Origin: Bradyrhizobiaceae bacterium PARB1
Lineage (GTDB): Bacteria > Pseudomonadota > Alphaproteobacteria > Rhizobiales > Xanthobacteraceae
Direction: 5' to 3'
Assembly: GCA_002256345.1 (NCBI GenBank)
Contig: NKIY01000014.1
Coordinates: forward strand, 62,001 to 126,000
DNA: 64,000 nt
The notes beneath the pieces were generated by a model. The model was not told the DNA's origin and ran no database searches. It saw nothing but the letters and a program-made list of their open reading frames with translations. This document shows positions 7,494-34,168 of this stretch, piece after piece. Both the position numbers and the translations under genes were made by a program. Position 1 is the first letter of the stretch; the number at the start of each line of letters is the position of its first letter.

Positions 7494-7537
7494 GTTCCTA
7501 CCTCTATTCGGCTCTCGCCTGGATGCCTGCCAGCCCT

Positions 7538-8287: not shown

Positions 8288-8463
8288 TATTTGATCAACC
8301 TTGTCGTTAATCCGGGAACCGTAGGCCAAATTTTGTCGCACCTATTCCGCTGCGCAACGTGACTAACCGAAGCGCGAACGTCTGGATGCAAGTGCCTGAG
8401 AACAGTTAGCCCGACAGAGTTAGGAGCGAATTAGCCCGCCGCCTTGACAGGAGCCCGAAGTGA

Positions 8464-10740: not shown

Positions 10741-11394
10741 ATGCGAATTCTGCTAATTGAGGACGACCCGATGATCGGCAAAAGCCTGGTCCGTGCGTTG
10801 CGCGATCAAGGCATGTCCGTTGATTGGACAACGAGCGACATTGAGGGCGAAGAAGCATTGGCCGTCGGAGGCCACGCGCTGGTGCTGCTGGATCTGGGGC
10901 TGCCTGGCAAATCAGGACTGGATGTTCTCAGGACCGCGCGAGCGGCCGGAAACAAAATTCCTGTCGTCGTGCTGACGGCTCGCGACGACCTGGACAACAG
11001 GATCGCTGGTCTGGACCTGGGAGCCGACGACTATATCACCAAACCATTTGAAGTACGCGAACTCGTCGCACGAATGCGCGCCGTCATGCGAAGGCAAAGC
11101 GGTTCCGCCAGATCGGTGCTCGAAGCAGGTGGGATTACATTAGATATGGAGACTCATGAAGTGGCCTTCCGAGGCAACCACGTCCTGCTTCCCGCTCGCG
11201 AATTCGCGCTGATGCGAGCTCTGATGGACAGACCCGGCGCTATCCTGTCTCGCGAACAGATCGAGAAGCGGCTCTACGGCTGGGGCGAGGAAGCGGAAAG
11301 CAATGCGGTCGATGTCTTGATCCACTCGGTCCGCAAAAAATTTGACAAAGACATCATCCAGAATGTCCGGGGGGATGATCATCAAGACCTCGCC
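10741..11394 (+). pseudogene. OmpR-type response regulator, C-terminus lost by frameshift into the kinase gene
   Basis: Receiver domain with the acidic pair EDD at residues 7-9, phosphorylatable Asp51 in LLDLGLPG and Lys101 in TKPFE, followed by an OmpR-type winged helix. It is very similar to the intact regulator at 32923-33582. At about 11372 the sequence reads NVRG and then leaves frame: the expected ending (GMIIKTSP then stop, overlapping the kinase ATG as ATGA) is present one frame away. The shift removes the last wing residues and the stop, so the frame runs on into the kinase gene to 11832. The receiver itself looks intact. Confidence 0.75.
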
Positions 11395-12705
11395 ATGAAC
11401 TCCTTACGAAACACTGCGCTTGTGTGGATGACCTCGCTCCTGACAGTCGTGGGGATATTAGCAGTCGTGATTTCGTATCAACTGGCGCGAAACGAGGCCG
11501 CAGGCTTCCTCGACAGCCAGCTACGTCAGATCGCACTCAACGCCGGCCAGGGATTGGTCGCCGACGCGGCACCCCCGGCAGTCTACGATCCGGAGGACGA
11601 CTTCGCTATTCAGATATGGGACGCTCCGGCAAAGAAGATCAGAAATTCTTCCGGCGGAATAGAGGTGCCTCTTCAGGCAAGTCCGGGCTTTGCGACAATT
11701 TCGGCAAGCGGCGAAGAGTGGCGAGTCTACATTGGGCGATGCCCGACGTACCGTGCAGGTCGCACAGCGCATGGTCGTTCGACAGGAGCTCGCCGAGAGC
11801 GCTGCGATCGCCCGCGGCCGCGCCGATCCTGACCGTTATTCCGTTGACCTGGCTCGTTATTGGCTAGTCGCTTGGCGGCGTAATGGGAAGTTGGCGCAGC
11901 TTGCGCAGGCGATCGCCGATCGCGGCGGCGATAGCAAGGAACCTCTCTCCGTCGAGGGAGTGCCGAGGGAGGTGAGGCCCCTGGTTGACGCGATGAATAT
12001 TTTGATTGGGCGTTTGCAAATCGCGCTCGATCAACAGCGGCGCTTCGTTTCCGATGCCGCCCATGAATTGCGGACGCCCCTGACGGCACTACAGCTTCAG
12101 ATCGAGAACTTGTGGAACGATGCCCCCGTTGGCAAAACCGGGCAGGCAGCTTTGGAATTGGGCAACGGGATCCGCCGCGCCTCGGTCCTGCTGGAACAAC
12201 TTCTCCGGATGGCGAGGTTCGAAGCACCTGTCGGGCTGGAGCATTGGGCACGGATCAGCTTGTCGGGCCTCATAACCGAATGCGTGGCCGACCAGATGGC
12301 GATCGCGACCGGCAAGGAGATCGATCTAGGCATCGTTGCGCGGGATCCCGTTGAAATCTCGGGCGCGCCGAGCGACTGAAGATTCTTTTTGGAAACCTTC
12401 TGAACAACGCAGTCCGCTACACTCCGCGCGGCGGGATGATCGACGTCTCGGTGCGATTTGCGCATGGCAACGCCGTTGTGGAGTTTGTGGATTCCGACTA
12501 CGGGGTGGCGGAGAGCGATTTGCCTCGCCTTTTCGATCGATCTTTTCGGGCGGCTCCGGCTGAAATCGATGGCAGCGGATTGGAGCTTGCGATCGTGCAC
12601 GCGATCGCCAGGCGTCACGGATGGGTCGTGACGGTCGAAAACCGGACCGATCGATCGGGCATGATCGCGCGGGTCACCGGGCCAGGCTTCCTCATTCCCT
12701 CCTAA
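11395..12705 (+). pseudogene. Sensor histidine kinase, multiply frameshifted
   Basis: Parts of a HAMP-type kinase are spread over three frames: the N-terminal helix from MNSLRNTALVW at 11395 and the sensor region to about 11735; the second helix ILTVIPLTWLVIG near 11830-11867; the phosphoacceptor region FVSDAAHELRTPLTALQL near 12050; and, after another shift near 12378, the ATPase region NNAVRYTPRGG onwards to 12705. The G-box reads GSGLELAI where an intact kinase has GTGLGLAI. At least four frame changes are needed. The intact homologue is at 31613-32926. Confidence 0.8.
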
Positions 12706-12772
12706 GTCTTCGCGACTACTTTGGGCCAGTAAGTCCATCCTTGCTGATGGATCGCTATTGGAATTCTCCGTG

Positions 12773-13429
12773 ATGTTCGAAGCGTTGACCGATCGCCTTT
12801 TCGACGCAATCGCGGCAGCGTCAACGCTTGCAGGAGGGAGCCTCACCTTCGCAATGTTGTGGGCTCAATCTGCTGTGTATCTCGGTCCGTGCCCTGCTCG
12901 TCCTCCTCTGGATTTTGGGGCGCACGCCGAGCGGCGGGCTGCCGTCGATGCCGGCTTTTCGTCGCTTCTGGCGTTGACGACGGCGGTCATCGTCTCGTCC
13001 GTATGGATGCATCCTCGTCCCTTCACGGTTCTGCCAATCCGCAACTATCTCAATCACACTCCGGACAGTTCCTTTCCAAGCGATCACGGCACCCTGTTAT
13101 TCGCACTGGGCTTCGCACTCTTGATATCCACATCCAGGCCAGGTCGTCAGTTTGGATCTCTGGCTGTGGTTCTGGGCGTCTCGGTGGGCTGGGCTCGAAT
13201 CTTTCTCGGCGCTCACTATCCATTGGATATTGTTGGCGCTGCCGTGGTAGCCGCGATAGCCGTATTGGTCGTTGCATCGCCCGGGGGGCCGCACAATTGG
13301 CGCACGCCTGACCGTTTGGGGGGGAGCATCTTTTTGGCTGGTCGATCGCTAAGAATCTACGGCAACGCTTTTAAAAATCGACGTCCCGTCTTCGATCTGA
13401 AACTGTTTGGCATGTCAAATGAACGATAA
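12773..13429 (+). CDS. PAP2-family membrane phosphatase, probably frame-damaged
   Basis: PAP2 phosphatase motifs are present in order: MHPRPF, PSDH (family PSGH) and ARIFLGAHYPLD. Such proteins dephosphorylate undecaprenyl diphosphate or other lipid phosphates at the membrane. Between about 12881 and 12916 the reading frame gives GPCPARPPLDF, whereas the next frame gives the hydrophobic VRALLVLLWILG expected there from the homologue at 27145-27759. Two compensating indels therefore seem to have replaced a membrane helix. The ATG at 12773 was preferred; 12758 is possible. The end overlaps the PilZ gene. Confidence 0.65.
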   Translation: MFEALTDRLFDAIAAASTLAGGSLTFAMLWAQSAVYLGPCPARPPLDFGAHAERRAAVDAGFSSLLALTTAVIVSSVWMHPRPFTVLPIRNYLNHTPDSSFPSDHGTLLFALGFALLISTSRPGRQFGSLAVVLGVSVGWARIFLGAHYPLDIVGAAVVAAIAVLVVASPGGPHNWRTPDRLGGSIFLAGRSLRIYGNAFKNRRPVFDLKLFGMSNER

Positions 13430-13673
13430 GCGGACTGCATCGCGACATCGCGTTTTCAAAGCGGGGAAAATAGCATTTGATGGTGGTGTGATCGATTGCA
13501 CCGTTCGCAACCTTTCAAAAACCGGCGCGGCGTTGGAAGTCGAGAGCCCCGTCGGCATTCCTCACAAATTCACCGTGGTGATCGAATCGGATCGCATCCG
13601 GCGGGGTTGCCATGTCGTTTGGCGGAAGGAGCGGCGCATTGGCGTCATGTTCCACAACGACCCGGAAAACTGA
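13419..13673 (+). CDS. PilZ domain protein
   Basis: 84 residues comprising one PilZ domain. The N-terminal arginine cluster (RTASRHR), DCTVRNLSKTGAALEV and the closing WRKERRIGVMF are the family landmarks; the RxxxR and (D/N)xSxxG elements are those that bind cyclic di-GMP. The start overlaps the PAP2 gene by 11 bases. A related PilZ gene interrupted by a stop lies at 29097-29345, next to the second copy of this gene neighbourhood. Confidence 0.85.
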   Translation: MNDKRTASRHRVFKAGKIAFDGGVIDCTVRNLSKTGAALEVESPVGIPHKFTVVIESDRIRRGCHVVWRKERRIGVMFHNDPEN

Positions 13674-13795
13674 AATATGGTTCGCGCGGAAGCCCTTGCC
13701 GTGTGGAACAAAGTTGAATTTCAAGCAATGTCTAAATGCCTTTTCGATGAGTCCCTCATTTTCTCCTAACAATTGATGGCTACAGATCCCTGACG

Positions 13796-14131
13796 GTGGC
13801 GACTTACGGCATCCAGGAAATCCACACGTCACAGCTTGCGAACAATCTATCCCGCGCGACCTTGATCGGACTTACTCTTCTGACCGCGACCGCTTCGTCC
13901 GCCATGGGCGGCAGCAGCTTCGCAAAGGAAGCTGCGATCACCCTCGATCAGGCCCGCGCCGCCGCGACGAAGGCGCAGCCGGGCACAATTCTCGATCAGG
14001 AGCTCGAGCACCGCAAGGGCGGCTCCGGCTTGCGTTACTCCTTCGACATCAAGGTCGGGGCGATCACCCACGAAGTTGGCATCGACGCCAAAACCGGAAC
14101 CGTTCTGCAGAACTCGGCTGAAAAGCGATGA
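13796..14131 (+). CDS. PepSY domain secreted protein
   Basis: 111 residues from a GTG start, with a hydrophobic export segment (LIGLTLLTATASSAMGGSSFA) and one PepSY domain: ITLDQARAAATKAQPG, then SGLRYSFDIKVG and GIDAKTGTVLQN. It is clearly homologous to the protein at 31162-31479. PepSY domains in the periplasm often modulate proteases or sensor kinases. It belongs to a gene neighbourhood that occurs twice in this window, each time with a two-component system and COG4705 proteins. Confidence 0.8.
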   Translation: MATYGIQEIHTSQLANNLSRATLIGLTLLTATASSAMGGSSFAKEAAITLDQARAAATKAQPGTILDQELEHRKGGSGLRYSFDIKVGAITHEVGIDAKTGTVLQNSAEKR

Positions 14132-14163
14132 TGTGACGCGGTCGACCATTCGGAGACAGGATC

Positions 14164-14757
14164 ATGACCCGTGCAAGCCCCTCACGGCCCCATTCCCTCG
14201 CTATAGCCGGCATTCTCGCCGCGAGCCTGGGCCTGGGACCACATATTATGACAACTGCGATGGCGGAGGATACCGTGATCGCTCCGGAGAAGAATCCCCC
14301 GGGCGACATTCCAGACAGTCAGGTGTTCATCGAATATCGCTCGCCGCTCGGGTTCACCATCAAGGTACCGGAGGGTTGGGCGCGTCGTGAGACAAAAAGC
14401 GGCGTCACGTTCAGCGACAAGTACAACACGGTGCGGACGACAATTGAAGAACACGTTGAACCGCTCACGATTGCCGTTGTGAAAAACGAATTGACGGCTC
14501 AACTCGAGATGTCCGGTAAGGCGGTACGAATCTCGGGGGTCACATTAACGAGTGTTCCTTCGGGGCCGGCCATCGTCATCTCATACGCTTCGAATTCGGA
14601 TGCAAATCCGGTGACCAACAAGGCGATCCGCCTGGAGAACGAACGTTACTTCTTCTGGAAGGGCGGTAAGCTTACCACCTTGACTCTGTCGGCGCCATAC
14701 GGCGCGGACGACGCCGATCAGTGGCTCCTGATGGCGAAGAGCTTTAGGTGGCTCTGA
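14164..14757 (+). CDS. Secreted protein of unknown function
   Basis: 197 residues with a signal peptide (basic start, hydrophobic LAIAGILAASLGLG, cleavage probably after AMA-E). The mature part begins with an acidic, proline-rich linker and then shows alternating strands: GFTIKVPEGWARR, VTFSDKYNTVRTTIEE and a closing LLMAKSFRWL. This pattern resembles small PsbP/DUF1795-like folds, but I cannot assign it to them. It is the middle gene of a PepSY, unknown and COG4705 run with the same orientation and short gaps. Confidence 0.75.
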   Translation: MTRASPSRPHSLAIAGILAASLGLGPHIMTTAMAEDTVIAPEKNPPGDIPDSQVFIEYRSPLGFTIKVPEGWARRETKSGVTFSDKYNTVRTTIEEHVEPLTIAVVKNELTAQLEMSGKAVRISGVTLTSVPSGPAIVISYASNSDANPVTNKAIRLENERYFFWKGGKLTTLTLSAPYGADDADQWLLMAKSFRWL

Positions 14758-14899
14758 TGATAACGACCACGACGACGCAAAGCTGCGAATATCGTTGCAA
14801 CATCGTCTGCGTCGTTTGGCGACCGCAAGGCTTCGCGACGCTGGCCGTTCGCCGCGCGATGAGAGAGCTGCAAACTGAACAATCAATGGGGCGCATCCT

Positions 14900-15694
14900 A
14901 TGATCGCGATGGAAAATCAGCGTGTTTCGACCATGCTCAACAAGGTTCCGGAAATCACTATCTCGTTCTGGATCATCAAGGCCCTGGCCGTGACCGTCGG
15001 CGAGACGGCCGCCGATTTCCTGAACACAAATCTGGGTTTTGGACTCACGGTCACCTCGTGGATTATGAGTGCGTTTCTTGCCGTCGCACTGATCGTACAG
15101 TTCGCGCGCAAAAAATATGTCCCGTCGATCTACTGGATCTCCGTCGTGCTCATCAGCGTCGTCGGCACCTTGATTACAGACAATCTCGTCGACAACCTCG
15201 GCATCAGTCTCAAGGCGACCACGCTCTTTTTCGGCATGGCGCTGCTCGTCACATTCGCCGTGTGGTATGCGGTTGAGCGAACACTGTCGATCCATACAAT
15301 CTATACGACGCGCCGCGAAGCGTTCTACTGGCTCGCTATTTTGCTCACCTTCGCTCTCGGCACGGCGGGCGGGGATCTCACAGCAGAAGGGCTGGGGCTG
15401 GGTTACGCACAGGCGGGACTCATATTCGGCGCGCTAATCGCGGTCGTCGCATTCGCCTACTATTTCCTGAAGATGGATGCGGTTCTGTCATTCTGGCTCG
15501 CCTATATTCTGACCCGCCCGTTGGGAGCTTCGTTCGGCGATCTGCTTTCGCAGCCGCTCGACAAGGGCGGACTGGGGCTCGGCACGACGCTCACCAGCGT
15601 GATCTTCTTCGTATGCATTTTCGGCCTCATTGTTTTTATGACTATCAGACATGGCAATCGCGGATCGTCCTATAAAGCATCCGGTAAAAGCTGA
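14900..15694 (+). CDS. COG4705 membrane protein with fourfold W-x9-G-x4-D repeat
   Basis: 264 residues with about eight hydrophobic segments. The pattern W-x9-G-x4-D occurs four times: W24-G34-D39, W79-G89-D94, W144-G154-D159 and W199-G209-D214, in the contexts GETAAD, GTLITD, GTAGGD and GASFGD. The spacing between repeats is 55, 65 and 55 residues. Acidic residues repeated in hydrophobic surroundings suggest a transporter or channel for a cation, but no function is known to me. An alternative start is the ATG at 14909. It follows a PepSY gene and an unknown secreted protein. Confidence 0.8.
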   Translation: MIAMENQRVSTMLNKVPEITISFWIIKALAVTVGETAADFLNTNLGFGLTVTSWIMSAFLAVALIVQFARKKYVPSIYWISVVLISVVGTLITDNLVDNLGISLKATTLFFGMALLVTFAVWYAVERTLSIHTIYTTRREAFYWLAILLTFALGTAGGDLTAEGLGLGYAQAGLIFGALIAVVAFAYYFLKMDAVLSFWLAYILTRPLGASFGDLLSQPLDKGGLGLGTTLTSVIFFVCIFGLIVFMTIRHGNRGSSYKASGKS

Positions 15695-19511: not shown

Positions 19512-20598
19512 CGAGCACAAGAATCCCAGTGGACCTAGGCGTCGAATCGTCCGGCTTCTGGCTATTCTGGCGGCGATCGGAGGTGTTGGCGTGCTTGTGG
19601 TCTGGGGTTTCCTCGCCGGACGCGGCGAGGCAACGATGGAAGCCGAGCGAGAACGTCCGGTCAAAGCGCCCTTACGCGTGTCGACCGACGGCCGGGGTCA
19701 GCCCGTCGTGACCCTCGACGCCGCAACGCGTAGGCAGAGCGGAGTCGATGTCACCAAACCAAAGCCGACGCAATACCAGGAGCAAGTCCGCGCCTACGGA
19801 ACAGTGCTTGACCTCGACAAGCTGGTTACGCTGGACAACAATTATGTAACCGCCGTCGCCCAGCTTCAGAGCGCTCAGGCCAGGATCGTTGCATCGAAGG
19901 CGGCTTTCGAGCGCGCGCAGGCCCTTTCCAAGGACAACATCACAACTGTGGCGCAGCTACAATCGGCCCAGGCCACATTCGGTGCGGATCAAGCCGGAGT
20001 CGCAACGGCAGAAGCCCAGGTCAAAACGCTAAAAGCAACGGCGCTGCAGGAGTGGGGAACGGTCATCGGCAAGGCACTCATCGAGGGCGGCCCGCTGGTG
20101 ACGCGTCTGATCGAACGTCAGACTTTCCTCCTCCAGATCACGCTGCCGCCTGGGACGTTCATAACGGCGGCACCGAAGGCGACGGTTCAATTCGGCGCAA
20201 GCGCCTCGCGCCATCAAGTCGATTTTGTCTCGCCCGCCACGCAAACGGACCCAAAGATCCAAGGCCTGAGTTTTTATTATGCGGCCGATGCCGCGAGCAA
20301 TCTGTTGCCAGGAATGAACGTCCTTGCGTTCCTGCCGTCCGGTGCTCCCATCGATGGAATTGAAATTTCAGCCTCGGCCGTGGTGTGGTGGACGGGGCGG
20401 GCATGGATCTATCTGCGCACTGGCGCGGACACGTTCACGCGCCACGAAATTCCAACCGATATGCCCGCGCCCGGAGGCGGCTTCATCGTTTCCGTCAAGA
20501 GCCTCCCACCCACTCCGGAGATTGTGACCCAGGGAGCACAGATCTTGTTGTCCGAAGAATTCCGCGCGCAGATCCAGGTCGGCGAGGACAACAAATGA
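19489..20598 (+). CDS. RND efflux periplasmic adaptor (HlyD/CusB type)
   Basis: 369 residues with one N-terminal membrane anchor (IVRLLAILAAIGGVGVLVVWGFLAG). A biotinyl-lipoyl-like strand region precedes and follows a helical hairpin (residues about 115-185) with two QLQSAQA repeats, then a beta-barrel part. The start may instead be the ATG at 19501. Its stop overlaps the RND pump start as ATGA. With the pump it forms the inner-membrane and periplasmic parts of a tripartite efflux system; no outer-membrane factor gene is seen nearby. Confidence 0.88.
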   Translation: MDVSMAGSEHKNPSGPRRRIVRLLAILAAIGGVGVLVVWGFLAGRGEATMEAERERPVKAPLRVSTDGRGQPVVTLDAATRRQSGVDVTKPKPTQYQEQVRAYGTVLDLDKLVTLDNNYVTAVAQLQSAQARIVASKAAFERAQALSKDNITTVAQLQSAQATFGADQAGVATAEAQVKTLKATALQEWGTVIGKALIEGGPLVTRLIERQTFLLQITLPPGTFITAAPKATVQFGASASRHQVDFVSPATQTDPKIQGLSFYYAADAASNLLPGMNVLAFLPSGAPIDGIEISASAVVWWTGRAWIYLRTGADTFTRHEIPTDMPAPGGGFIVSVKSLPPTPEIVTQGAQILLSEEFRAQIQVGEDNK

Positions 20599-23500
20599 CG
20601 CCGGCAACCCCCGGTCCCTCAGCCCCGTCGGGCTTGCAAGCGAATGTGATCGGCTTCGCGATCCGCTTCCGCGGCATCGTCGTGGCGTTGGCGTTGCTGC
20701 TGCTCGGCTACGGCATCCTCTCGGTTATTCGCGCGAAATATGACGTTTTCCCGGAGTTCGCACCGCCCCAGGTCGGCATCCAGACCGAGGCGCCCGGCCT
20801 TACGCCAGAACAGATCGAGGTCCTCGTCACCCAGCCGATCGAGAATGCCATCAATGGTGTCCCCGGCGTGCAATCGTTGCGGTCCACCTCGATCCAGGGG
20901 CTCTCCGTCATCACAGTTATCTTCGCGCCCGGAAGTGACATCTATCGGGATCGGCAAGTGGTGGCCGAGCGTCTGGCGGTCGCCGCACAACAGCTCCCGG
21001 CGGGGACGGGGCCGCCGGGAATGACGCCGCTGACCTCCTCGACGAGTACCATCCTTGTCGCCGGGCTCACCTCCGACACACACTCGCTGATGGATTTACG
21101 CACTATCGCCGATTGGACGCTGCGCCTGCGGCTTCTCGCCGTGCCGGGCGTCGCCAAGGTCGCGGTGTTCGGCGGCGATCTTCGTTCGCTTCAGGTTCAG
21201 GTCCATCCGGACCAGCTCATTCGCTATAATCTCACCCTCACCGACGTTCTGACCGCGGCGAAGAAGGCGACCGGCGTGCGCGGTGCGGGCTTTATCGACA
21301 CAACCAATCAACGCATCGTCTTCCAGACCGAGGGCCAGTCACTCCAGGTGGAGGATGTTGCTCACACTGTTCTGCTGAACCAGGGCGCTTCGAGCGTGCT
21401 TCTCGGCGACGTCGCCGAGGTGGTCTATGCGCCGGAGCCGCCGATCGGCGGCGCGACGATTATGGGCCAGCCCGGCGTAATGTTGAATGTCTCGGGGCAA
21501 TACGGGGCCAATACGGTCGAGGTGACCCAGCGCGTCGAAGAGGCGCTGGCGAGCTTGCGGCCGGGGCTGGAGAAGGCCGGTATTAAATTTCACGGCGATC
21601 TTTTTCGCCCGGCCAACTTCATCGATACGGCCACCAACAATGTCCGGGACTCGCTGGTTCTTGGTGGCATCCTCGTCATTGTGGTGCTGTTTCTGTTCCT
21701 GTTCGATCTACGCAGCGCAGCGATCGCCTGCACGGCGATCCCGCTGTCGCTGCTTGCCGCCGTCATTATCCTCGACGCTTTGGGGCAGAGCCTGAACACA
21801 ATGACCTTGGGCGGGCTCGCGATCGCCATCGGCGAAGTGGTTGATGATGCGGTAATCGGCGTTGAGAACATCGTCCGGCGTTTACGCGAGAACAGGCGTT
21901 TGCCGGAACCTCGACCGGTGGGCCGGGTCGTACTCGACGCCTCGCTCGAAGTGCGCGGCGCTGTCATTTATGCGACCTTCGCGGTTATCCTTGTCTTCTT
22001 GCCCGTGCTGACGTTGCCAGGTCTCGCCGGCCGGTTCTTTGCGCCGCTCGGCATGGCCTATATCTTCGCCATTCTCGCATCGCTTGTCGTGGCACTGACG
22101 GTGACGCCGGCGCTCTCGATGCTGCTGCTCACCGGCCGCGGACGAGGAGGCGAAGGCGCGGGTGCGGTCGCGCATGATAGAGAGCCGCCCGTCGTTCGCT
22201 GGACGCGCGGGCGTTATGAGCGAATTTTGCGCGGTATCGCCATCCATCCGCGGACGGCGATCGCCGCCGCTCTGGTTTTTACCGTGGCCGGTTGTGCCGC
22301 CCTTCCGTTCTTTGGTAGCGCCTTCCTGCCCGAACTCAAGGAAGGGCATTTCATTCTTCACATGTCGGCTGTGCCCGGCACCTCGATTGCCGAATCCGAG
22401 CGCCTCGGCGCGCTTGTGACCAAGGCTCTGATCGCTCTGCCGGTGGTGCGCTCGGTCGCCCAGCACATCGGCCGCGCCGAGAAAGCCGACGACACCGCAG
22501 GCACGCATGAAAGCGAGTTCGAAGTCGACCTCAAATCCGGATTATCGGGCGACCAGACGGAAGGAGCGCAGGCCGACGTACATAAAGCGCTCCGCGGGTT
22601 CGCGGGAGTCAATTTCGCGGTAACGCCATTCCTGACCGAGCGCGTAGAGGAAACCTTGTCGGGCTACACGGCTGCCGTCGTCGTCAACATCTTCGGCGAC
22701 GATCTCGACACGCTCGATCGCGCGGCACGGGACGTCGCGCGTACCGTTGGGGGTATCCAGGGTGCGGCGGACGTGCAATTGCAATCGCCGCCTGGCATGC
22801 CGCAGTTGACCATTCGACTCCGGAAAAAGGACGTGGAGCGCTGGGGCTTCGATGCGGTGGACGTCCTCGATTTGGTCCGCACCGCCTATCAGGGCGATGT
22901 TGTGGGCCAGAGCTATGATGGCAACCGGGTTTTCAACGTCATCACGGTGCTTGACGCCGAGAGCCGCAATAGTATCACCAAGGTCGGTGACCTCGCGCTA
23001 CGCGCCCCGAGCGGCAGCTATGTGCTTCTCAAGCAAATCGCGGACATATACGAAACCGCCGGGCGCTATCAGGTATCTCATCTCGGCGGCCGACGTCTCC
23101 AAACGGTGACGGCGAACGTTGCCGGCCGTGACGTCGCCTCGTTCGTGCGGGATGCTCAGGCCGCGGTCTCTGCCAACGTAGAACTCCCGAGCGGGGGCTA
23201 CGTGGAATTCGCCGGTTCGGCGCAGGCGCAGGCGCAATCCCGGCGCGACCTGCTGATTCATTCGTCGATCGCCGCAATCGGCGTGGTGCTGCTGCTGTCG
23301 ATCGTAACGCGCAACTGGCGAAACCTGCTGCTCGTTCTCGTCAATCTGCCCTTCGCGCTCGTTGGTGGCGTGCTGGCGGTATTTGCGACCGGAGGCGTAC
23401 TCTCACTCGGTTCGATGGTTGGTTTCGTGACACTGTTCGGAATCACGCTGCGCAACTCGATCATGATGATCTCCCACTATGAGCATCTGGTCGAAACTGA

Positions 23501-23798
23501 CGGCATGCTTTGGGGTCTCGAAGCTGCAATCAAAGGCGCCGGCGACCGGCTGACGCCGATCCTGATGACCTCGCTCGTTACTGCGCTCGGTCTCCTGCCT
23601 CTCGTGATCGGAATGGGAGATCCAGGCCGTGAGATAGAAGGCCCCATGGCGCTCGTGATCCTGGGAGGCCTGCTGACCTCGATGGCCCTGAATTTGCTTG
23701 TCTTACCCACCCTAGCCCTGCGCTTCGGGCGGTTCGAGTCGGCCGTCGATGAACTCGGCGGCGGTTCGCCTGAATTGGCGAAACAAAACTCGAGCTAA
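20595..23798 (+). CDS. RND efflux pump, heavy-metal (CusA/CzcA-like) family
   Basis: 1067 residues from the ATG at 20595, which overlaps the adaptor stop; a longer frame exists but lies inside the adaptor gene. Helix 1 (GIVVALALLLLGYGI) is followed by the metal-RND pattern DVFPEFAPPQVGIQTEAPGL and by PIENAINGVPGV. Helix 4 carries GEVVDDAVIGVENI with the proton-relay acidic residues. Two large periplasmic loops and 12 helices give the usual length. Substrate is not evident: the ChrB-N gene at the head of the operon suggests a metal or oxyanion. Confidence 0.92.
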   Translation: MTPATPGPSAPSGLQANVIGFAIRFRGIVVALALLLLGYGILSVIRAKYDVFPEFAPPQVGIQTEAPGLTPEQIEVLVTQPIENAINGVPGVQSLRSTSIQGLSVITVIFAPGSDIYRDRQVVAERLAVAAQQLPAGTGPPGMTPLTSSTSTILVAGLTSDTHSLMDLRTIADWTLRLRLLAVPGVAKVAVFGGDLRSLQVQVHPDQLIRYNLTLTDVLTAAKKATGVRGAGFIDTTNQRIVFQTEGQSLQVEDVAHTVLLNQGASSVLLGDVAEVVYAPEPPIGGATIMGQPGVMLNVSGQYGANTVEVTQRVEEALASLRPGLEKAGIKFHGDLFRPANFIDTATNNVRDSLVLGGILVIVVLFLFLFDLRSAAIACTAIPLSLLAAVIILDALGQSLNTMTLGGLAIAIGEVVDDAVIGVENIVRRLRENRRLPEPRPVGRVVLDASLEVRGAVIYATFAVILVFLPVLTLPGLAGRFFAPLGMAYIFAILASLVVALTVTPALSMLLLTGRGRGGEGAGAVAHDREPPVVRWTRGRYERILRGIAIHPRTAIAAALVFTVAGCAALPFFGSAFLPELKEGHFILHMSAVPGTSIAESERLGALVTKALIALPVVRSVAQHIGRAEKADDTAGTHESEFEVDLKSGLSGDQTEGAQADVHKALRGFAGVNFAVTPFLTERVEETLSGYTAAVVVNIFGDDLDTLDRAARDVARTVGGIQGAADVQLQSPPGMPQLTIRLRKKDVERWGFDAVDVLDLVRTAYQGDVVGQSYDGNRVFNVITVLDAESRNSITKVGDLALRAPSGSYVLLKQIADIYETAGRYQVSHLGGRRLQTVTANVAGRDVASFVRDAQAAVSANVELPSGGYVEFAGSAQAQAQSRRDLLIHSSIAAIGVVLLLSIVTRNWRNLLLVLVNLPFALVGGVLAVFATGGVLSLGSMVGFVTLFGITLRNSIMMISHYEHLVETDGMLWGLEAAIKGAGDRLTPILMTSLVTALGLLPLVIGMGDPGREIEGPMALVILGGLLTSMALNLLVLPTLALRFGRFESAVDELGGGSPELAKQNSS

Positions 23799-24175
23799 TA
23801 TCTTACCAGTACCCGCAGCCGAATGTTTCCGGAACGAGCGAACTCATCGGCCATCTGGTGCTCTCGACCCCCGCAATGAGCGCGATCGATGCATTGTCGA
23901 GCCACGTCGAGCCGGATGAAAAGGCCAAACATTCCGGCGGCTACCCGTCCTCTGAATATAACGACAATATCGACGCGATCCGAACGAGGTCACGTTTCGG
24001 TCATCACACCCATCCTCCGACCGTTCGCAAACCCGTGCGACGGCGGCGTGGAGCGTCGACCGCTCTTCTAGGAACTTTATGCTTTCACTGGGACGATGGC
24101 CGGACGGCGCGTCGAGCATCGAACTCGGATCGATCGTTGACCGATTTGGTCGGAGCGACTAGTGTTGGAGTACAG
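23799..24175. other. Intergenic stretch without recognisable gene
   Basis: No frame here has a ribosome site or family similarity. The stretch separates the RND operon from the fluoride riboswitch and presumably holds the promoter of the fluoride operon near its right end. Nothing else is recognised. Confidence 0.5.
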
Positions 24176-24226
24176 ATGGGGATGGAGTCCCCCGATACCC
24201 GCCCGTCGTGGGCTGATGACTCCTGC
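24176..24226 (+). promoter_or_regulatory. Fluoride riboswitch (crcB motif)
   Basis: The element has the crcB-motif layout: stem GGGG/CCCC enclosing ATGGAGT (24178-24192), then a linker, stem GCCC/GGGC (24201-24213), then TGATGACTCCT (24214-24224). ACTCC at the end can pair back to GGAGT in the first loop, the pseudoknot typical of this riboswitch. A hairpin and an intrinsic terminator follow, then the fluC gene, so ligand-dependent transcription control is likely. Confidence 0.88.
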
Positions 24227-24240
24227 TGGGATGGGGCTGC

Positions 24241-27144: not shown

Positions 27145-27759
27145 TCATCGATCAGCGACGCGGCGGGGGAAAATCCCCTTGGGCAAACGGAGGGCATGTA
27201 GCAAAAATTCGTAAGACCGCTCTATCAGCGGCAGAATACGGTCTGCAACGTGAAGATGAACAGCCCATGCCACAGCAGCACCTGTGGCCGCGACAACGGC
27301 GGATCCGACCATATCGAGAGGAAAGTGAACGCCCACGTAGATTCGAGCCAAGGCCGTCGCAAGACCGGCGAGAACCAATACCCATCCCCACCCGCGCTGT
27401 ACTCGCGTGACGAGGAGACCGAAGCCGAAGGTCCAAAGGAATGTGGTGTGATCGCTCGGAAAAGAGCTGTCGGGCGAGTGGGCGAGAAGGGTGTGGCCCA
27501 AGCCTATCGCGAAGGGGCGTGGATGATACCAGAGAAGGCCAATGGTCCAGCTCAGTACAAACGCGGTCAGGAGCCCGGTCCCGATCGAAATCAACGCATC
27601 CCGTTGGTCGCGCACGCCTCGAATCCACAAGCATACCGCCAGAACGGCGGCCACATAAACGAGATATTCCGCGGCTACCTTGGCGAACGCTATCGTTACG
27701 ACATTCGCTGAAGCCGGGGCATTGAGGGCCAGAAAAAGTGCGGTATTCCAGGTTTCCAT
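27145..27759 (-). CDS. PAP2-family membrane phosphatase (undecaprenyl-diphosphatase type)
   Basis: 204 residues from the ATG at 27759 (METWNTALF); longer frames add sequence with no similarity. Five to six helices. The three catalytic motifs are intact: YHPRPF near residue 88, FPSDHTTF near 108 and ARIYVGVHFPLD near 147. BcrC-like members recycle undecaprenyl diphosphate on the periplasmic side. It is convergent with the dual-specificity phosphatase gene. Confidence 0.85.
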   Translation of the reverse strand: METWNTALFLALNAPASANVVTIAFAKVAAEYLVYVAAVLAVCLWIRGVRDQRDALISIGTGLLTAFVLSWTIGLLWYHPRPFAIGLGHTLLAHSPDSSFPSDHTTFLWTFGFGLLVTRVQRGWGWVLVLAGLATALARIYVGVHFPLDMVGSAVVAATGAAVAWAVHLHVADRILPLIERSYEFLLHALRLPKGIFPRRVADR

Positions 27760-28053
27760 CGTTCTCTCAGCAATACGTCCGCATCGGCGCGGGAGGAAGG
27801 TTAGGACCATCGCGTCTGAATTGGGCGCGGTCGGGGCGGAAACAAAATCGACACTCAATGTTGGCGCTTTCAACGCAGACCCACCATTCTGCGGAAAGAT
27901 AGGTCGTCCCATTTTCCGTATTCGGCAAGTGTCGGTTTCCTTCACGGAGGATTCGCTCGCCGACAATGATACAATACTCGGTGTACCTAAATTCATCTTG
28001 CATCACCGGTTCGCGTCGGTGCGCTGTCTCAAATTCTCATCGGAAGAAGTAAC

Positions 28054-28815
28054 ATGATCGTTAATTGGGCGCATGCTTGGCCGCCGGCGATTGCCGCATT
28101 TCTGGCCTCACTCGTCGAGTTCGTCGAAGCTCTGACCGTGGTTCTGGCCGTGGGCGCGGTCCGCGGCTGGAGCGGTGCACTGATCGGAAGTGGGGCCGCG
28201 CTTGGCGTGCTGCTGGCCATCGTCGTGGCTATCGGTCCGGCGCTCACGCGTATCCCGCTGGATGTCGTCCAGCTCGCCGTCGGACTGCTTCTGCTCCTCT
28301 TCGGAATGCGATGGCTGCGCAAGGCAATCCTGCGTTCGGCCGGAGTTATTCCTTTGCATGACGAGAACGCGATCTATTCCAGGCAAACGGAATCGCTGCG
28401 CAAGCTCGCGCAGCGTGGGCGAGGATGGGACAAGGTCGCCATCGCAACAGCTTTCAAAATCACGATGCTCGAGGGCACAGAGGTAGTCTTCATTGTTATC
28501 GCTGTCGGTTCCGGCGGCGTGGGCTTGCTTGTTCCGGCGAGCGTGGGGGCGCTGGCCGCGCTGCTTGTCGTCGTCCTGCTTGGCTTTGTCGTTCACAAAC
28601 CTTTGGCATCCATTCCGGAGAATACCTTGAAGTTCATGGTCGGTGTATTGCTCTCCGCCTTTGGGGCTTTCTGGGTTGGCGAAGGCATGGGACTTCGATG
28701 GCCGGGGCAGGACTGGTCGATCCTTGGTCTCGTCGCTGGCTTTCTGATCATCGCATTGATCGCAACCTCGCTTTGCCGGGCCCGGTTTGCCGCGCGCGAT
28801 GCCGCGAAACGATAG
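28054..28815 (+). CDS. COG4280-type membrane protein (predicted cation transporter)
   Basis: 253 residues with about seven hydrophobic segments in two similar halves. Acidic motifs recur: SLVEFVEALTVVLAVGA in the first half and MLEGTEVVFIVIAVG in the second, an E-x2-E arrangement like that of the GDT1/TMEM165 and related Mn/Ca transporters. Function is unproven. Short basic loop and CRARFAARDAAKR end are cytoplasmic by the positive-inside rule. A 67-residue membrane protein gene follows after 10 bases. Confidence 0.75.
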   Translation: MIVNWAHAWPPAIAAFLASLVEFVEALTVVLAVGAVRGWSGALIGSGAALGVLLAIVVAIGPALTRIPLDVVQLAVGLLLLLFGMRWLRKAILRSAGVIPLHDENAIYSRQTESLRKLAQRGRGWDKVAIATAFKITMLEGTEVVFIVIAVGSGGVGLLVPASVGALAALLVVVLLGFVVHKPLASIPENTLKFMVGVLLSAFGAFWVGEGMGLRWPGQDWSILGLVAGFLIIALIATSLCRARFAARDAAKR

Positions 28816-29385: not shown

Positions 29386-30162
29386 TCAGGGACGCGGCGA
29401 AAATGCCGCGGGATGCGGTCCCGGCCGCTGCGGAATAACGAGGATACAAACGGTAATGACAACGATGAGGGCCGCCGAGACGGAAAAATCTCCAATGGCA
29501 AGCCCCCCGGCGGCGATCGGCTTGTCAAGTGAGTTGGCGATCGTGGCGCCCAGCGGGCGCGTCAGGATGAAAGCGGCCCAGAACAACGTGGTGCGAGACA
29601 TCGTCGTAAAGAAGTAAAGAACAGCGACGATTGCCAAGACGACGGCGATCACAAGCGCACTGCCGTTGTAACCGAGCCCGGTGTCATCTGCCATCCAGTC
29701 GCCGAGCGCCGTGCCGAGGGTCTGCGAGAACATGATGGTCGCCCAGTAGAACGCTTCGACTTTGGGCGACGTAACGGTTTCGACGGAGACGGAGCCGAGC
29801 GACCAGTACCACAAGCCCAGTGTCGCCATGACCATCGTGAAGAGCGACAGGGAGCCGCCGAGATAGCCAATGCCGAGCGAACGATCGACCAAGTCGGCAA
29901 GCGTCGTTCCGGCGAGCGTGGTCGCCGTGATGGCGGCCCAGTACAGGAAGGGCTGAAATCGCTTCGCCCTAATCTGAGCACTCACGGCCGCAATCAATAC
30001 GGTGGCAAAGATTGCAGTGCCGATCAGATAACCGAGACCCAACGTCAATGTTACCGCGTTGCCGCCCACCTCGCCCAGGGTGGTCGCGAATATCTTGATG
30101 ACCCAGAATCCGAGCGTGATTGCCGGCACCTTGCTGGCTTCTGTGCTGACGATTCTGTACAT
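29386..30162 (-). CDS. COG4705 membrane protein, Asn variant
   Basis: 258 residues from the ATG at 30162 behind a GGAG site. Same architecture as the copy at 30324-31082, with W20-G30, W75-G85, W140-G150 and W195-G205. The residue five after each Gly is Asn35, Asp90, Asp155 and Asn210, so the first and fourth repeats carry Asn (GEVGGN, GATIAN) where the other copies have Asp. Other conserved parts are FADRSLGIGY-like VDRSLGIGY and TRPLGA. The C-terminus is a Pro-rich tail. Probably cotranscribed with the copy upstream. Confidence 0.8.
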   Translation of the reverse strand: MYRIVSTEASKVPAITLGFWVIKIFATTLGEVGGNAVTLTLGLGYLIGTAIFATVLIAAVSAQIRAKRFQPFLYWAAITATTLAGTTLADLVDRSLGIGYLGGSLSLFTMVMATLGLWYWSLGSVSVETVTSPKVEAFYWATIMFSQTLGTALGDWMADDTGLGYNGSALVIAVVLAIVAVLYFFTTMSRTTLFWAAFILTRPLGATIANSLDKPIAAGGLAIGDFSVSAALIVVITVCILVIPQRPGPHPAAFSPRP

Positions 30163-30323
30163 GCGGCTTTCTCCGAACAACGATTGCTGATTGAACGACA
30201 AATTGACAAATTGAACATGGGAGCCGCTCTCCGACGGCTACGGATCCTGCATCGCTCGACGCGCCACGCTTGAAAATTTGCGAACGCTCATGAGGATCGC
30301 CATCGCTTGCCGACGCAGTAGCG

Positions 30324-31082
30324 TCATGCCGGATGCTTGCCCGCGCGCTGCGGCAACAGGATCAGGCACGCAAGGATGAAGGCTGCGATCACCGCCGATG
30401 CGAGCGGTCTGCTGAGACTGAGACCCCCGGCAGCGACCGGTTTATCGAGGAAGTCGCCGACCGTCGCGCCGAGCGGACGGGTCAGAATGAAGGCCGCCCA
30501 GAACAGCAGCACCCGCGACACGTTTGTGCGATAATAGAGTGCGACAACGACGGCCAGCCCGGCCGCAAAGACGAGAGCGCCCCCTTCATAACCAAGGCCG
30601 CCGGTGTCGGCCAGCCAGTCGCCGAGCGCAGTGCCGAGGGTTTGCGAGAACGTGATCGCTCCCCAGTAAAACGCCTCGACCTTCGGCGTAGAGACAGTGT
30701 TGACCGATACCGTTCCCTCCGACCAATACCAAAGCCCGAGGACGCTCACGAGGCAGAGAAACAGCAGCGATGAGCCGCCGGTATAACCGATCCCGAGCGA
30801 TCGGTCGGCGAAGTCGGCCATCGTGGTGCCAAAGGTGGTCGAGGCCACGATGGTCGCCCAGTAGAGAAACGGGTGAAAGCGCTTCGCGACGATCTGTGCG
30901 ATCACGAACGCGATGAGCAGCACCGCGAACAAGGCTGTTCCCGCCAAATAACCCCAGTTCAGCGTCATGGTGACGGTGTCACCGCCGGTCTCGCCGAGCG
31001 TTGTGGCAAGAATTTTGATGATCCAGAAGCCGAGCGTGACTTCAGGGACTTTGCTCAATGCGAATTTCTGGGCTGGGGTCAT
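30324..31082 (-). CDS. COG4705 membrane protein with fourfold W-x9-G-x4-D repeat
   Basis: 252 residues from the ATG at 31082; a longer frame overlaps the PepSY gene and is not homologous. Repeats are W20-G30-D35 (GETGGD), W75-G85-D90 (GTTMAD), W140-G150-D155 (GTALGD) and W195-G205-D210 (GATVGD), with spacing 55, 65 and 55, exactly as in the copy at 14900. About eight membrane segments. It lies between a PepSY gene and another COG4705 gene downstream of an intact two-component system. Function unknown. Confidence 0.82.
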   Translation of the reverse strand: MTPAQKFALSKVPEVTLGFWIIKILATTLGETGGDTVTMTLNWGYLAGTALFAVLLIAFVIAQIVAKRFHPFLYWATIVASTTFGTTMADFADRSLGIGYTGGSSLLFLCLVSVLGLWYWSEGTVSVNTVSTPKVEAFYWGAITFSQTLGTALGDWLADTGGLGYEGGALVFAAGLAVVVALYYRTNVSRVLLFWAAFILTRPLGATVGDFLDKPVAAGGLSLSRPLASAVIAAFILACLILLPQRAGKHPA

Positions 31083-31161: not shown

Positions 31162-31479
31162 TCAGTCCGGATGAGGACCTTCTGTCTTGTTTTCGAGCAC
31201 CTTGCCGCTCGCGGCATCGACGCCGACTTCCTGCGTCCGCGAGCCGTTCTTGATGTCGAACGAATAACGCAGGCCGCTGCCTCCGGATTCGCGCTCAAGC
31301 TCTTCGTCGGTGACTTTCCCGGGATGGGCCTTGAGGGCGGTTTCCCGGGCCTGCGTAATGGTGACCTTCGCTTGACCGGCAAGCTTTTGACCGGTGTAGG
31401 CCAGCGCTGGCGCCGCGAGCGCCAGCAAGATACCTGCGGCGCCCAAGGCGCCCAGGCGATACGGGGTAGTCCTGATCAT
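31162..31479 (-). CDS. PepSY domain secreted protein
   Basis: 105 residues from the ATG at 31479, which has GGAGAG just before it. Signal peptide LGALGAAGILLALAAPALA, then one PepSY domain: VTITQARETALKAHPG, EEELERESGGSGLRYSFDIK-like strand region and GVDAASGKVLEN. Homologous to the protein at 13796-14131. It sits between the histidine kinase and the COG4705 genes on the same strand, so a role as periplasmic modulator of the kinase or target of the regulator is possible. Confidence 0.85.
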   Translation of the reverse strand: MIRTTPYRLGALGAAGILLALAAPALAYTGQKLAGQAKVTITQARETALKAHPGKVTDEELERESGGSGLRYSFDIKNGSRTQEVGVDAASGKVLENKTEGPHPD

Positions 31480-31612
31480 GTGTCTCTCCAATTCGCCCCC
31501 GCTTGCGAACGGATGCGCGACGCGTCGGCGACGGCCCGCTCCGATGAGATGACCATGGCCCCGGAGACTGAGGACAAAATGAGCCTGGGTGGGGCGAGAA
31601 GAAAAAAGAGCG

Positions 31613-32926
31613 CTATGCCGGTAATGTGACGCGCGCGAGAACGCCGGCGGCCCCGTCGGGGCGATTCTCGACGGTCAGGACAAGACCGTTGCGCTCGGCA
31701 ATTCGCCGCGCGATCGCCAGCCCCAGACCGGTTCCCTCGACGTCCGGCGGCGACGCGCGATAGAACCGATCGAAGATGCGGGAAACGGCGCCGGGCGGCA
31801 AACCGGTACCCGTATCCAGAACCTCGACAACGCTTCGCCCGTCGCGCAGAGTCAGGGAAACGTCCACCTGCCCGCCGGAGGGCGTGTACCGCACGGCGTT
31901 ATCGATCAGGTTTGCGAATAGAACGCGCAATTCCTCGACCGAACCATGCAGCGTCGCGGACGTCTCCATCCGGGCCCCGAGATCGATGCCCTTGTGTTCG
32001 GCCAGCACCACATGATCGCCGACGCAGTCGAGCAGCAGCGGACCCACCTCAACCGTTTCGCTGAGGGGTGCTACGGGTTCATCGAGGCGAGCCAGTCGCA
32101 GCAGTTGACCGACGAGGGCGCTCGCGCGCCTTACGCCCTGCGCAAGTGCCGCCTTGCCAGCCTCGAATTCCGCTCCGACCGAACCGGAACTGTTGATCTT
32201 GAGGTTATCTACCTGGATTTGCATCGCGGCGAGCGGGGTGCGGAGTTCATGCGCCGCGTCGGAGAGAAACCGCTTCTGCGCTTCGACGGCGGCGCGCAGG
32301 CGCTCGATCAGGCCGTTCATGCTTTCGACCAGAGGCGCCACTTCGACCGGAATTCCGGTGAGGGGAATGGCTGCGGCCGCTACCGCACTTCGATTGGCGA
32401 TATCTCGCGCCAAGGTGTCCAACCGTCCAAGCATCCGGTTCAGCGCCCAGCCGACGACGAGCCAGGACAGCGGTATGACGATCAGGATCGGCGCCGCGGC
32501 CCCCACGGCGGCGCTTCGGGCAAACTCCTGACGAACCTTGTCGCGCTGCGCGACCAGCACGGTCCAGGTGTCGTTGTCCGTTGAATAAACCCGCCAAGGT
32601 TCGCCGGCGATGACGACATTTTCAAAGCCAGGTTTCCTCGGCCGCGCGATATTGAGACCGCGAAGCGTGGTATGGACAACGACGCCACCCTTCCAGATCG
32701 TTACCGCAATCTGATCTTCCGGATCCTGATCGCTGGCCGGCGGCGCGTCAGCATCGGGAAGACCCAAACCGGCGTTGAGTGCAACCTGGCGTAGCTGCCC
32801 GTCAAGAAAATCAGCGGCTTCGTCACGCGCAAGCTTGTAGGCGAGCAACATCGCGGCGGCGCCGACCAAGGTCAGAAGAACGGTCATCGAGACAAGGGTT
32901 GCTCGCCGGAGCGATACCGTCGTCAT
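31613..32926 (-). CDS. Sensor histidine kinase
   Basis: 437 residues. Helix 1 about residues 10-30, a short periplasmic sensor (30-140), helix 2 about 142-162, HAMP about 163-215, phosphoacceptor His226 in FLSDAAHELRTPLAAMQ and an intact ATPase domain with NLIDNAVRYTP (N box), LDTGTGLP (G1) and GTGLGLAIARR (G2). The start overlaps the regulator gene by four bases. A decayed homologue with the same N-terminal sequence pattern lies at 11395-12705. The signal is unknown. Confidence 0.92.
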   Translation of the reverse strand: MTTVSLRRATLVSMTVLLTLVGAAAMLLAYKLARDEAADFLDGQLRQVALNAGLGLPDADAPPASDQDPEDQIAVTIWKGGVVVHTTLRGLNIARPRKPGFENVVIAGEPWRVYSTDNDTWTVLVAQRDKVRQEFARSAAVGAAAPILIVIPLSWLVVGWALNRMLGRLDTLARDIANRSAVAAAAIPLTGIPVEVAPLVESMNGLIERLRAAVEAQKRFLSDAAHELRTPLAAMQIQVDNLKINSSGSVGAEFEAGKAALAQGVRRASALVGQLLRLARLDEPVAPLSETVEVGPLLLDCVGDHVVLAEHKGIDLGARMETSATLHGSVEELRVLFANLIDNAVRYTPSGGQVDVSLTLRDGRSVVEVLDTGTGLPPGAVSRIFDRFYRASPPDVEGTGLGLAIARRIAERNGLVLTVENRPDGAAGVLARVTLPA

Positions 32927-33582
32927 GATTTTTGTACCATCCAGCCCGCCCCCCTCACATTGAAGATGATGTCCTTCCCAAACTTGCGCCGTATCGAGTA
33001 GATCAGGGCATCGACCGCGTTGCTTTCCACCTCTTCTCCCCAGCCGTAAATACGCTCCTCCACCTGCGCGCGGGAAAGAATACGACCCGGGCGCTCCATC
33101 AAGGCGTGCATCAAAGCGTACTCGCGGGCAGGCAATACCTGCACGATGTCGGCATGCGACAACTCATGGGTCTCGGTGTTGAGCTCAATCGTGCCCGTCA
33201 CCAGATAGGATGTCGCGCTGCCCGCCCGACGGCGAAGGACCGCGCGCATTCTGGCGAGCAACTCCCGTGTCTCGAACGGTTTGACGAGATAGTCGTCCGC
33301 GCCGAGATCGAGCCCGGCCACCCGAGAATCAAGCCCTTCGCGCGCCGTGATGATCAGCACAGGTGTATCGAACCCCCGGCTCCGCGCCGCCTTCAAAAGA
33401 TCGAGACCTTCAACGCCAGGCAGCCCGAGGTCGAGCAGCACAATCGCATGTCCGCCATCGGCGAGCGCGGCTTCCGCCTCTCCGCCGGCGCGCACCCAAT
33501 CTACCGACATGCCTTCCTCCGCAAGCGTCCGGGAAAGGCCCTCGCCGATCATCGCGTCGTCTTCCAAGAGCAGAACGCGCAT
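32923..33582 (-). CDS. OmpR-family response regulator
   Basis: 219 residues from the ATG at 33582 (MRVLLLEDD). Receiver with EDD, phosphoacceptor Asp51 in LLDLGLPG and Lys101 in VKPFE, then an OmpR-type winged helix ending NVRGAGWMVQKS. Members of this QseB/PmrA-like group bind direct repeats. It is cotranscribed with the kinase gene and is the probable controller of the PepSY and COG4705 genes that follow. Confidence 0.92.
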   Translation of the reverse strand: MRVLLLEDDAMIGEGLSRTLAEEGMSVDWVRAGGEAEAALADGGHAIVLLDLGLPGVEGLDLLKAARSRGFDTPVLIITAREGLDSRVAGLDLGADDYLVKPFETRELLARMRAVLRRRAGSATSYLVTGTIELNTETHELSHADIVQVLPAREYALMHALMERPGRILSRAQVEERIYGWGEEVESNAVDALIYSIRRKFGKDIIFNVRGAGWMVQKS

Positions 33583-34168
33583 CGCCAATTCACTCACATC
33601 CCGGGGCAAAAGGCCACGCTACTTAGGGAAACCGCCGCGCCCACTCGATGGCTTTTCCATTACAATAGAATGGTGCCAATCTTCGGTCCAAGACTTGTGC
33701 GCGAACAGGACGTGGTTCATTCGCTCGGACGTCGCTTTATCCTGACGCCCTTGACAGTCTCATCTTACAAACCATGAGGTCGATTGAATCGAGCCCATTT
33801 AGAACGTCCATCGGACCTTTCACAGCTTTAATCTTTGCGTAGCATTTCTTGCTCTTATCAACATCTTAAAACTTTTTGCGCTCAGCGCATTCCCGACGCT
33901 TACGGTACAGCACTGTCGAACCGATGGCAGCGCAGCTCTGCGGATTTCCGCCAGCTCTTGAGTGTGCCCTAGAGCTGGCGATCAATTTGTGTCGTCGCCA
34001 ACGCGCGGCGTTTATGGGAGACACGTCTCTGACGGATAGTCATTGTATATGGCCTGCATCAGCGCAGAGCCGCGAGACGAGACGACATAGAGGTTTTCGC
34101 TTGCTTCGATATTCAGTGCAGGCGCACAAACATCACGCTCGGATCAATTGCAATGTCATTGAGTACGG
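33583..34168. other. Intergenic stretch of about 585 bases, no gene recognised
   Basis: AT-richer than its surroundings in its middle part. No frame with ribosome site, motif or protein-like composition on either strand was found. It should contain the promoter of the two-component operon near its left end. No tRNA, terminator or obvious repeat was seen. Confidence 0.5.

Follow-up and report, generated by a model that had tools for sequence, protein, structure and literature searches.

What kind of protein carries the same short motif four times at fixed intervals, and what might it do? The question is raised by two genes in a 64 000-nucleotide stretch of DNA from Bradyrhizobiaceae bacterium PARB1 (contig NKIY01000014.1, positions 62,001 to 126,000), which is referred to here as the window. 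One gene lies at 30324–31082 on the minus strand and encodes P0002 (252 aa); the other lies at 14900–15694 on the plus strand and encodes P0001 (264 aa). The initial annotation located both genes correctly and described in each product four copies of W-x9-G-x4-D, exactly at the residues where we find them: W20/G30/D35, W75/G85/D90, W140/G150/D155 and W195/G205/D210 in P0002, and motifs starting at residues 24, 79, 144 and 199 in P0001. The two proteins are 37–38% identical to each other. At most two motifs were found in 20 000 shuffles of each sequence, and of the 249 stop-to-stop frames in the window that reach 100 aa, only those of P0001 and P0002 contain four.

Membership and conservation of the DUF347 repeat

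The repeat is already catalogued in Pfam as PF03988 (DUF347, ‘Repeat of Unknown Function’), to which the initial annotation adds the exact motif and its spacing. PF03988 matches four stretches each in P0001 (E = 1.8e-59), P0002 (E = 5e-63) and a third protein, P0003 (E = 1.3e-47), which is encoded at 29386–30201 on the minus strand from either a TTG start at 30201 or an ATG at 30162; the scores of the three window proteins (198.2, 209.6 and 160.2 bits) compare with a curated cut-off of 28.2. A search of NCBIfam with the DUF347 proteins of the window returned no family at E up to 0.1, and the name COG4705, under which the proteins were initially described, was not found in the literature searched. 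P0001 (subfamily B, mmfC1-like) and P0002 (subfamily A) are ordinary members of this known family of bacterial membrane proteins, with no departure from PF03988 seen in either, whereas P0003 (subfamily A') departs from it by asparagine residues in repeats 1 and 4. The accessible parts of the literature yielded no proven function, transport data or solved relative of DUF347, and in this sense the initial statement that no function is known was fair. However, it overlooked the Pfam family itself, a proposed role in metal transport (PMC4531530, PMC9756366) and the fact that mmfC1 and mmfC2 are DUF347 genes, located in a Tn6048 cassette reported to be induced by Zn and Pb (PMC4914505, PMC12029693, PMC2864759).

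In an alignment of 145 sequences (the three window proteins and 142 relatives), the G position lies at W+10 and the D position at W+15 in all 145 rows. The offsets between successive repeats are 55/65/55 in 108 sequences, 55/65/54 in 22 and other in 15, with the middle offset of 65 being constant. The 80 genome loci contributing to this alignment were found with peptide patterns containing parts of repeats 1 and 4 and are thus biased; among 103 representatives of the pattern-found set with less than 80% identity, W and G occur in 103/103 at all four sites, and D in 101, 103, 103 and 101, N being the sole alternative. We also assembled a set with a profile HMM across five phyla, which comprises 100 unique full-length sequences including the window proteins (15 partial frames were dropped, and 14 loci come from genomes reached via pattern-found loci). 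Conservation of the four positions holds here as well: among 55 representatives with less than 70% identity, W is present in 55/55 at all four sites, G in 55, 54 (one S), 55 and 55, and D in 53 (two N), 55, 55 and 53 (two N). Outside the motif triad, T86, T151, G154 and G220 are invariant in these representatives (55/55), E31 and E136 are found in 54, with D in the remaining one, and K23, R202, E31 and E136 are each retained in 53–54. Matches to DUF347 were detected in 3.5–12% of the genomes sampled in the five phyla (48/398, 16/246, 19/247, 11/194 and 7/199), where the centre genome, already known to be DUF347-positive, is part of every count, some matches are fragments, and the phylum label of each genome set is that of its centre locus.

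Predicted structure and history of the repeats

AlphaFold2 predicts eight membrane helices in P0002 (mean pLDDT 92.6, pTM 0.90), at residues 17–40, 44–65, 71–95, 99–122, 133–159, 164–185, 190–213 and 225–242, and the same layout in P0001 (pLDDT 87.4, pTM 0.84), for which the input was an alignment of 20 subfamily B sequences only. The four acidic residues, initially proposed to lie in or near the membrane, are placed within the predicted membrane helices rather than in loops, with one motif on each odd helix (1, 3, 5 and 7). The repeats of P0002, all on the minus strand, span residues 11–65 (30888–31052), 66–120 (30723–30887), 131–185 (30528–30692) and 186–240 (30363–30527), and the first helix of each hairpin conforms to [FY]W-x9-G-[ETA]-x2-[GAST]-D. 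Comparison with hhalign gave probabilities of 80.4–98.1% for all six repeat pairs, which shows the four hairpins to be homologous; the helices themselves are predicted with high confidence. DUF347 is almost certainly an eight-helix membrane protein made of four homologous helical hairpins.

The spacing had been read initially as the trace of a duplicated two-repeat unit, a history which predicts that R1–R3 and R2–R4 are the closest pairs. Instead, the highest mean identity is between R2 and R3 (0.295), followed by R1–R3 (0.255), R1–R2 (0.242), R1–R4 (0.226), R2–R4 (0.206) and R3–R4 (0.174), and a two-plus-two duplication was rejected as the simple history of the repeats. In the P0002 model, the loop joining helices 4 and 5 is extended, in line with the 65-residue offset.

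By the models, helices 1, 3, 5 and 7 should run in the same direction, with all Asp residues towards the same side of the membrane. The side on which the N-terminus lies carries on average 11.1 K+R per protein, compared with 2.6 on the side of the hairpin turns. In membrane proteins, positive charge marks the cytoplasmic side (the positive-inside rule), and this distribution suggests an N-in topology in which the odd helices carry the four Asp close to their periplasmic ends. Nearly all near-invariant positions fall on the odd helices (28/100, compared with 2/86 on the even ones), and these four helices therefore probably form the core. Polar or charged residues also occupy the positions one and two turns before the Asp, namely, T27/E31 in repeat 1, S or T82/T86 in repeat 2, T151 in repeat 3 and R202 in repeat 4.

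Neither phmmer nor profile searches matched DUF347 to any PDB sequence up to E = 10. Foldseek searches of the PDB with both models returned nothing at E ≤ 0.001 (best E values of 0.12 and 0.31), VIA-align gave rows at background against the same database, and no BFVD match reached E ≤ 0.001. The absence of PDB matches above background does not prove that the predicted fold is new. In a direct-coupling analysis of 202 sequences (Neff 137), D35–D210 ranked 12th among inter-helix pairs, but these two positions vary in a single clade only. Pairs of odd helices accounted for 12 of the 60 top couplings, which does not exceed the fraction of position pairs that they represent (roughly a quarter). This evidence was discarded as too noisy.

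A third copy with two asparagines

P0003 and a broken fourth copy were missed in the initial annotation. P0003 retains all W and G residues of the motif, as well as D90 and D155, but has N at the positions of D35 and D210, in repeats 1 and 4. The same N-D-D-N arrangement is found in Methylobacterium segetis (L042), Methylorubrum rhodesianum (L048), M. aquaticum (L220), the Bradyrhizobium SK17 plasmid (L148) and one genome of the acidobacterial set (L214). In a tree built from 202 sequences, the seven N-D-D-N rows, of which P0003 and L001 represent one gene, group together as a single clade (support 1.0), indicating one origin, and the co-substitution of D35 and D210 was accordingly rejected as independent covariation. 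As this clade demonstrates, one subfamily can do without two of its four Asp. In the accessible parts of the DUF347 literature, we found no mention of this variant.

Of the 259 residues aligned between P0003 and its M. segetis counterpart, 167 are identical, and the differences by codon position (77/52/129) are consistent with selection for the protein. The gene is not intact everywhere: in the Rhodopseudomonas BAL398 plasmid (L151), the equivalent of P0003 is divided between two frames, and in the SK17 plasmid it aligned in two pieces, whereas the window and genome G001 have an open frame. In three Methylobacterium-type loci, the N-D-D-N copy directly precedes a full-Asp copy; in the window, it follows one. 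An obligate partnership between the two forms was weakened as a candidate explanation by genome G1281, whose sole DUF347 match is the N-D-D-N gene, with no other in its 16-kb locus and with kinase and regulator genes nearby (L221). One may speculate that the N-D-D-N copy is a modified form that mostly resides beside a full copy.

The broken fourth copy lies at about 7540–8287 on the minus strand and is open in two frames (8039–8341 and 7422–8048); this decayed gene (7422–8341) is found near a cytochrome b561 gene (8464–8997). The nearest genome, G001, contains a second tandem DUF347 pair elsewhere (contig C1, 649417–651404).

Two mmf-like modules in the window

The DUF347 genes of the window form two modules resembling the mmf cassette, with PepSY, PAP2 phosphatase, DUF347 and two-component system genes. 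Module I (33609–29386, minus strand) encodes, in this order, a response regulator (32923–33609; 54% identical to mmfR), a sensor histidine kinase (31613–32926; 33% to mmfS over 428 aa), a PepSY-domain protein (31162–31491; PF03413, E = 3.8e-11; 31.7% to mmfA over 60 aa), P0002 and P0003. Downstream, a PAP2 phosphatase frame (27145–27996, minus strand; PF01569, E = 1.5e-11) has a counterpart in Bradyrhizobium sp. SK17 that is annotated as undecaprenyl-diphosphatase and starts at about 27760 in window terms. Module II (10741–15694, plus strand) consists of a response regulator (10741–11832; 54% to mmfR), an mmfS-like histidine kinase piece (11690–12379), an mmfB-like PAP2 phosphatase (12758–13429; PF01569, E = 4.9e-14; 36% to mmfB), a PilZ-domain protein (13407–13673), a PepSY-domain protein (13796–14131; E = 2.2e-10; 36% to mmfA over 67 aa), a protein at the position that mmfD takes in the cassette (14164–14757; family unknown, no Pfam match) and P0001. 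The kinase of module II looks split, as its frame contains HisKA and a weak HAMP match in Pfam and no ATPase domain; the SK17 annotation has two separate genes here.

Six of the seven mmf proteins (mmfA, B, C1, C2, R and S) have homologues in the window, with best E values ranging from 2e-5 (mmfA) to 2e-102 (mmfC2) against a database of seven proteins, the mmf genes of pBS64. P0002 is 67.5% identical to mmfC2, and P0001 is 51% identical to mmfC1. No homologue of mmfD was found at 14164–14757 or among the eleven window genes compared.

The conjugative plasmid of Bradyrhizobium sp. SK17 (NZ_CP025114.1) encodes proteins with 100% identity to P0001 and P0002, and its near-identical region is annotated with genes for the iron exporter MbfA, ChrB, an RND permease, CrcB, TMEM165/GDT1 and undecaprenyl-diphosphatase. 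The window itself contains a fluoride riboswitch (RF01734, 54.9 bits) at 24169–24232 on the plus strand, CrcB being annotated in the matching SK17 region, and a large AcrB-type RND permease at 20385–23798 on the plus strand, with multidrug, MFS and ChrB-like genes upstream of its SK17 counterpart. On the strand opposite to P0003 and the downstream PAP2 gene, and between them, 28054–28815 (plus strand) encodes a membrane protein with OFeT_1 as the best Pfam match (E = 1.2e-6) and a GDT1 match below the cut-off; its SK17 annotation is TMEM165/GDT1.

Genomic neighbourhoods of DUF347 genes

For counts of gene context, we used 80 loci that are pattern-selected and close to P0002, with detection models built from the same loci. 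Within 1 kb of DUF347, a kinase is present in 31 loci, a regulator in 25, PepSY in 20 and PAP2 in 7. At 3–6 kb, kinases and regulators drop to 0–4 per kb bin and PepSY and PAP2 to 0, no PAP2 being seen beyond 2 kb. None of the four partner classes occurs within 3 kb in 38/80 loci, and 19/80 contain more than one DUF347 gene. Two-component genes were found near DUF347 in loci of five phyla. Among ten hand-picked distant loci, they lie within about 1.2 kb in five (L221, L222, L224, L226 and L228), of which L228, from the cyanobacterial set, also contains PepSY and a PAP2 gene directly adjoining DUF347; four loci have no two-component genes, and in L230 the DUF347 frame was not recovered. In the short loci found with the profile, the DUF347 frame was recovered in 114/115, and two-component frames are present in 33/114, a count that has no measured background and includes loci that are fragments of one gene.

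A separate test covered 52 DUF347 places from 40 genomes, out of the 48 that were positive in the 398-genome set (the eight left out include G037). PAP2 lies within 3 kb in 5/52 places, compared with 0.21 expected, representing four distinct PAP2 genes, one of which belongs to the window's nearest genome. By contrast, no P1B ATPase was found within 10 kb in any of the 52 places (0.66 expected), and an RND protein of the CzcA/CusA type was found in one (0.30 expected), indicating no enrichment; with so few expected, the test excludes strong enrichment only. Contig ends make all these counts lower bounds, and tandem DUF347 genes are partly treated as separate places; the pump counts leave out three RND matches that reach the cut-off only when combined with their neighbours, as well as a below-cut-off RND protein about 7 kb from the counterpart of P0002 in G001. 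Overall, the neighbouring genes fit an envelope module under signal control better than a link with known metal pumps, even though metal genes abound in the plasmid region of the window.

Possible functions of DUF347

DUF347 is likely to be a transporter of some kind. A cation carrier appears to be the likeliest reading, to which we attach moderate confidence given the induction data, the acidic residues of the core and the published proposals, and a carrier for divalent metal ions is our leading, albeit tentative, guess. The two-component system encoded nearby would switch on this putative secondary carrier for ions such as Zn or Pb, which would act together with the PAP2 phosphatase, by which phosphate would be released outside, and the PepSY protein, as in the mmf cassette. 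The metal reading is supported by the window homologues of six genes of a cassette reported to be induced by Zn and Pb and by the MbfA, ChrB, GDT1-type, RND and CrcB genes annotated on the SK17 plasmid. In the literature, DUF347 has been proposed to be a Pb exporter acting with UppP, through metal export and precipitation, in a paper on Frankia (PMC4531530), and an algal study refers to it as a metal transporter associated with stress (PMC9756366). Against a metal carrier stand the lack of enrichment of known heavy-metal pumps near DUF347 and the many loci (38/80) in which all four partner classes are missing within 3 kb, as well as the N-D-D-N clade, which does without two of the four Asp and provides the sole DUF347 match in G1281. 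That DUF347 exports rather than imports its substrate seems doubtful. Plasmid pHB44 with mmf was linked to uptake of Fe and V, the opposite direction, an effect tentatively attributed to the insert and not mapped to mmfC (PMC4914505).

The recurrent PAP2 genes invite a different interpretation, in which DUF347 would handle lipid phosphate, for instance, by flipping the undecaprenyl phosphate made by the neighbouring PAP2/UppP enzyme, and metal induction would reflect envelope stress. The excess of PAP2 within 3 kb, set against the unenriched metal pumps, its confinement to the immediate vicinity of DUF347 and the direct adjacency in L228 would all fit, K23, R202, E31 and E136 could bind phosphate, and flipping of C55-P is ascribed to DUF368 and DedA proteins. 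Yet no PAP2 was detected within 3 kb in 73/80 loci in the count of partner combinations, four near-periplasmic Asp would suit a cation better than an anionic lipid, and the bacitracin resistance linked to pHB44, tentatively ascribed to mmfB, was also obtained with a plasmid having only mmfA and mmfB, so that DUF347 is not needed for it (PMC4914505). We consider this interpretation unlikely. The kinases and regulators concentrated within 1 kb, a pairing that recurs in the actinobacterial, Bacteroidota, cyanobacterial and acidobacterial sets, would be compatible with DUF347 being a non-transporting accessory sensor in the membrane that reports ions or the state of the envelope to the two-component system; this is rather less probable still, considering that 38/80 loci lack every partner class, that an eight-helix, four-repeat build seems more typical of carriers and that 19/80 loci have more than one DUF347 gene. 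Near-invariant E31 and E136, together with the four Asp in predicted membrane helices, would also suit a channel or exchanger for protons, sodium or another monovalent cation, but the reported inducers of mmf are Zn and Pb, no hint of pH or Na came up in passing among the neighbours or in expression evidence, and we regard a monovalent substrate as improbable. That DUF347 is an MFS permease, the putative label given to mmfC1 and mmfC2 (PMC4914505), is very improbable; Pfam gave no match to MFS, DUF347 being the sole family reported at E up to 0.1.

One can envisage a new kind of carrier in which four parallel hairpins surround one axis, the Asp form a ring at the periplasmic mouth and are paired as 1+4 and 2+3, and the N-D-D-N proteins have lost exactly one pair. 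This specific arrangement is unlikely, and the solitary copy of G1281 makes it slightly more so. If it is true, an N-D-D-N copy beside a full copy could be an asymmetric partner, whereas the one in G1281 would have to work by itself. The N-D-D-N paralogue and the unenriched metal-pump neighbours are results that any mechanism must explain. Together with the naturally occurring N-D-D-N subfamily, the near-invariant motif shows which residues mutagenesis should target, and the two-component, PepSY and PAP2 genes nearby suggest the conditions under which to work.

Comparison with known systems

Mitochondrial carriers (SLC25) consist of three tandem two-helix repeats in one orientation, with a charged motif on the odd helices. 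DUF347 resembles them, by analogy only, in having tandem two-helix repeats of one orientation and a charged motif on odd helices, but has four repeats instead of three and a different motif, and SLC25 is absent among the DUF347 sequence or fold matches listed. If the four-hairpin arrangement is true, DUF347 would be the four-hairpin counterpart of these three-hairpin carriers. The Mn/H+ antiporters of the GDT1/TMEM165 group (UPF0016) have a repeated membrane motif with Glu, Gly and Asp, and this repeated acidic motif recalls that of DUF347. The gene at 28054–28815 is annotated as such an antiporter in SK17, and comparison of its product, a single sequence rather than the GDT1 family profile, with the DUF347 profile gave a probability of 0.3%.

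In the Pb-induced DUF347–UppP operons (PMC4531530), the host of which is not necessarily Frankia, DUF347 lies beside an undecaprenyl-phosphatase gene, as it does in the window. The mmf cassette, which lies in Tn6048 (PMC4914505, PMC12029693) and is known from Cupriavidus metallidurans, pMOL98, pHB44 and pBS64, is a contiguous A-B-C1-D-C2-R-S operon. The window instead has two modules more than 11 kb apart and adds an N-D-D-N copy and an inserted PilZ gene.
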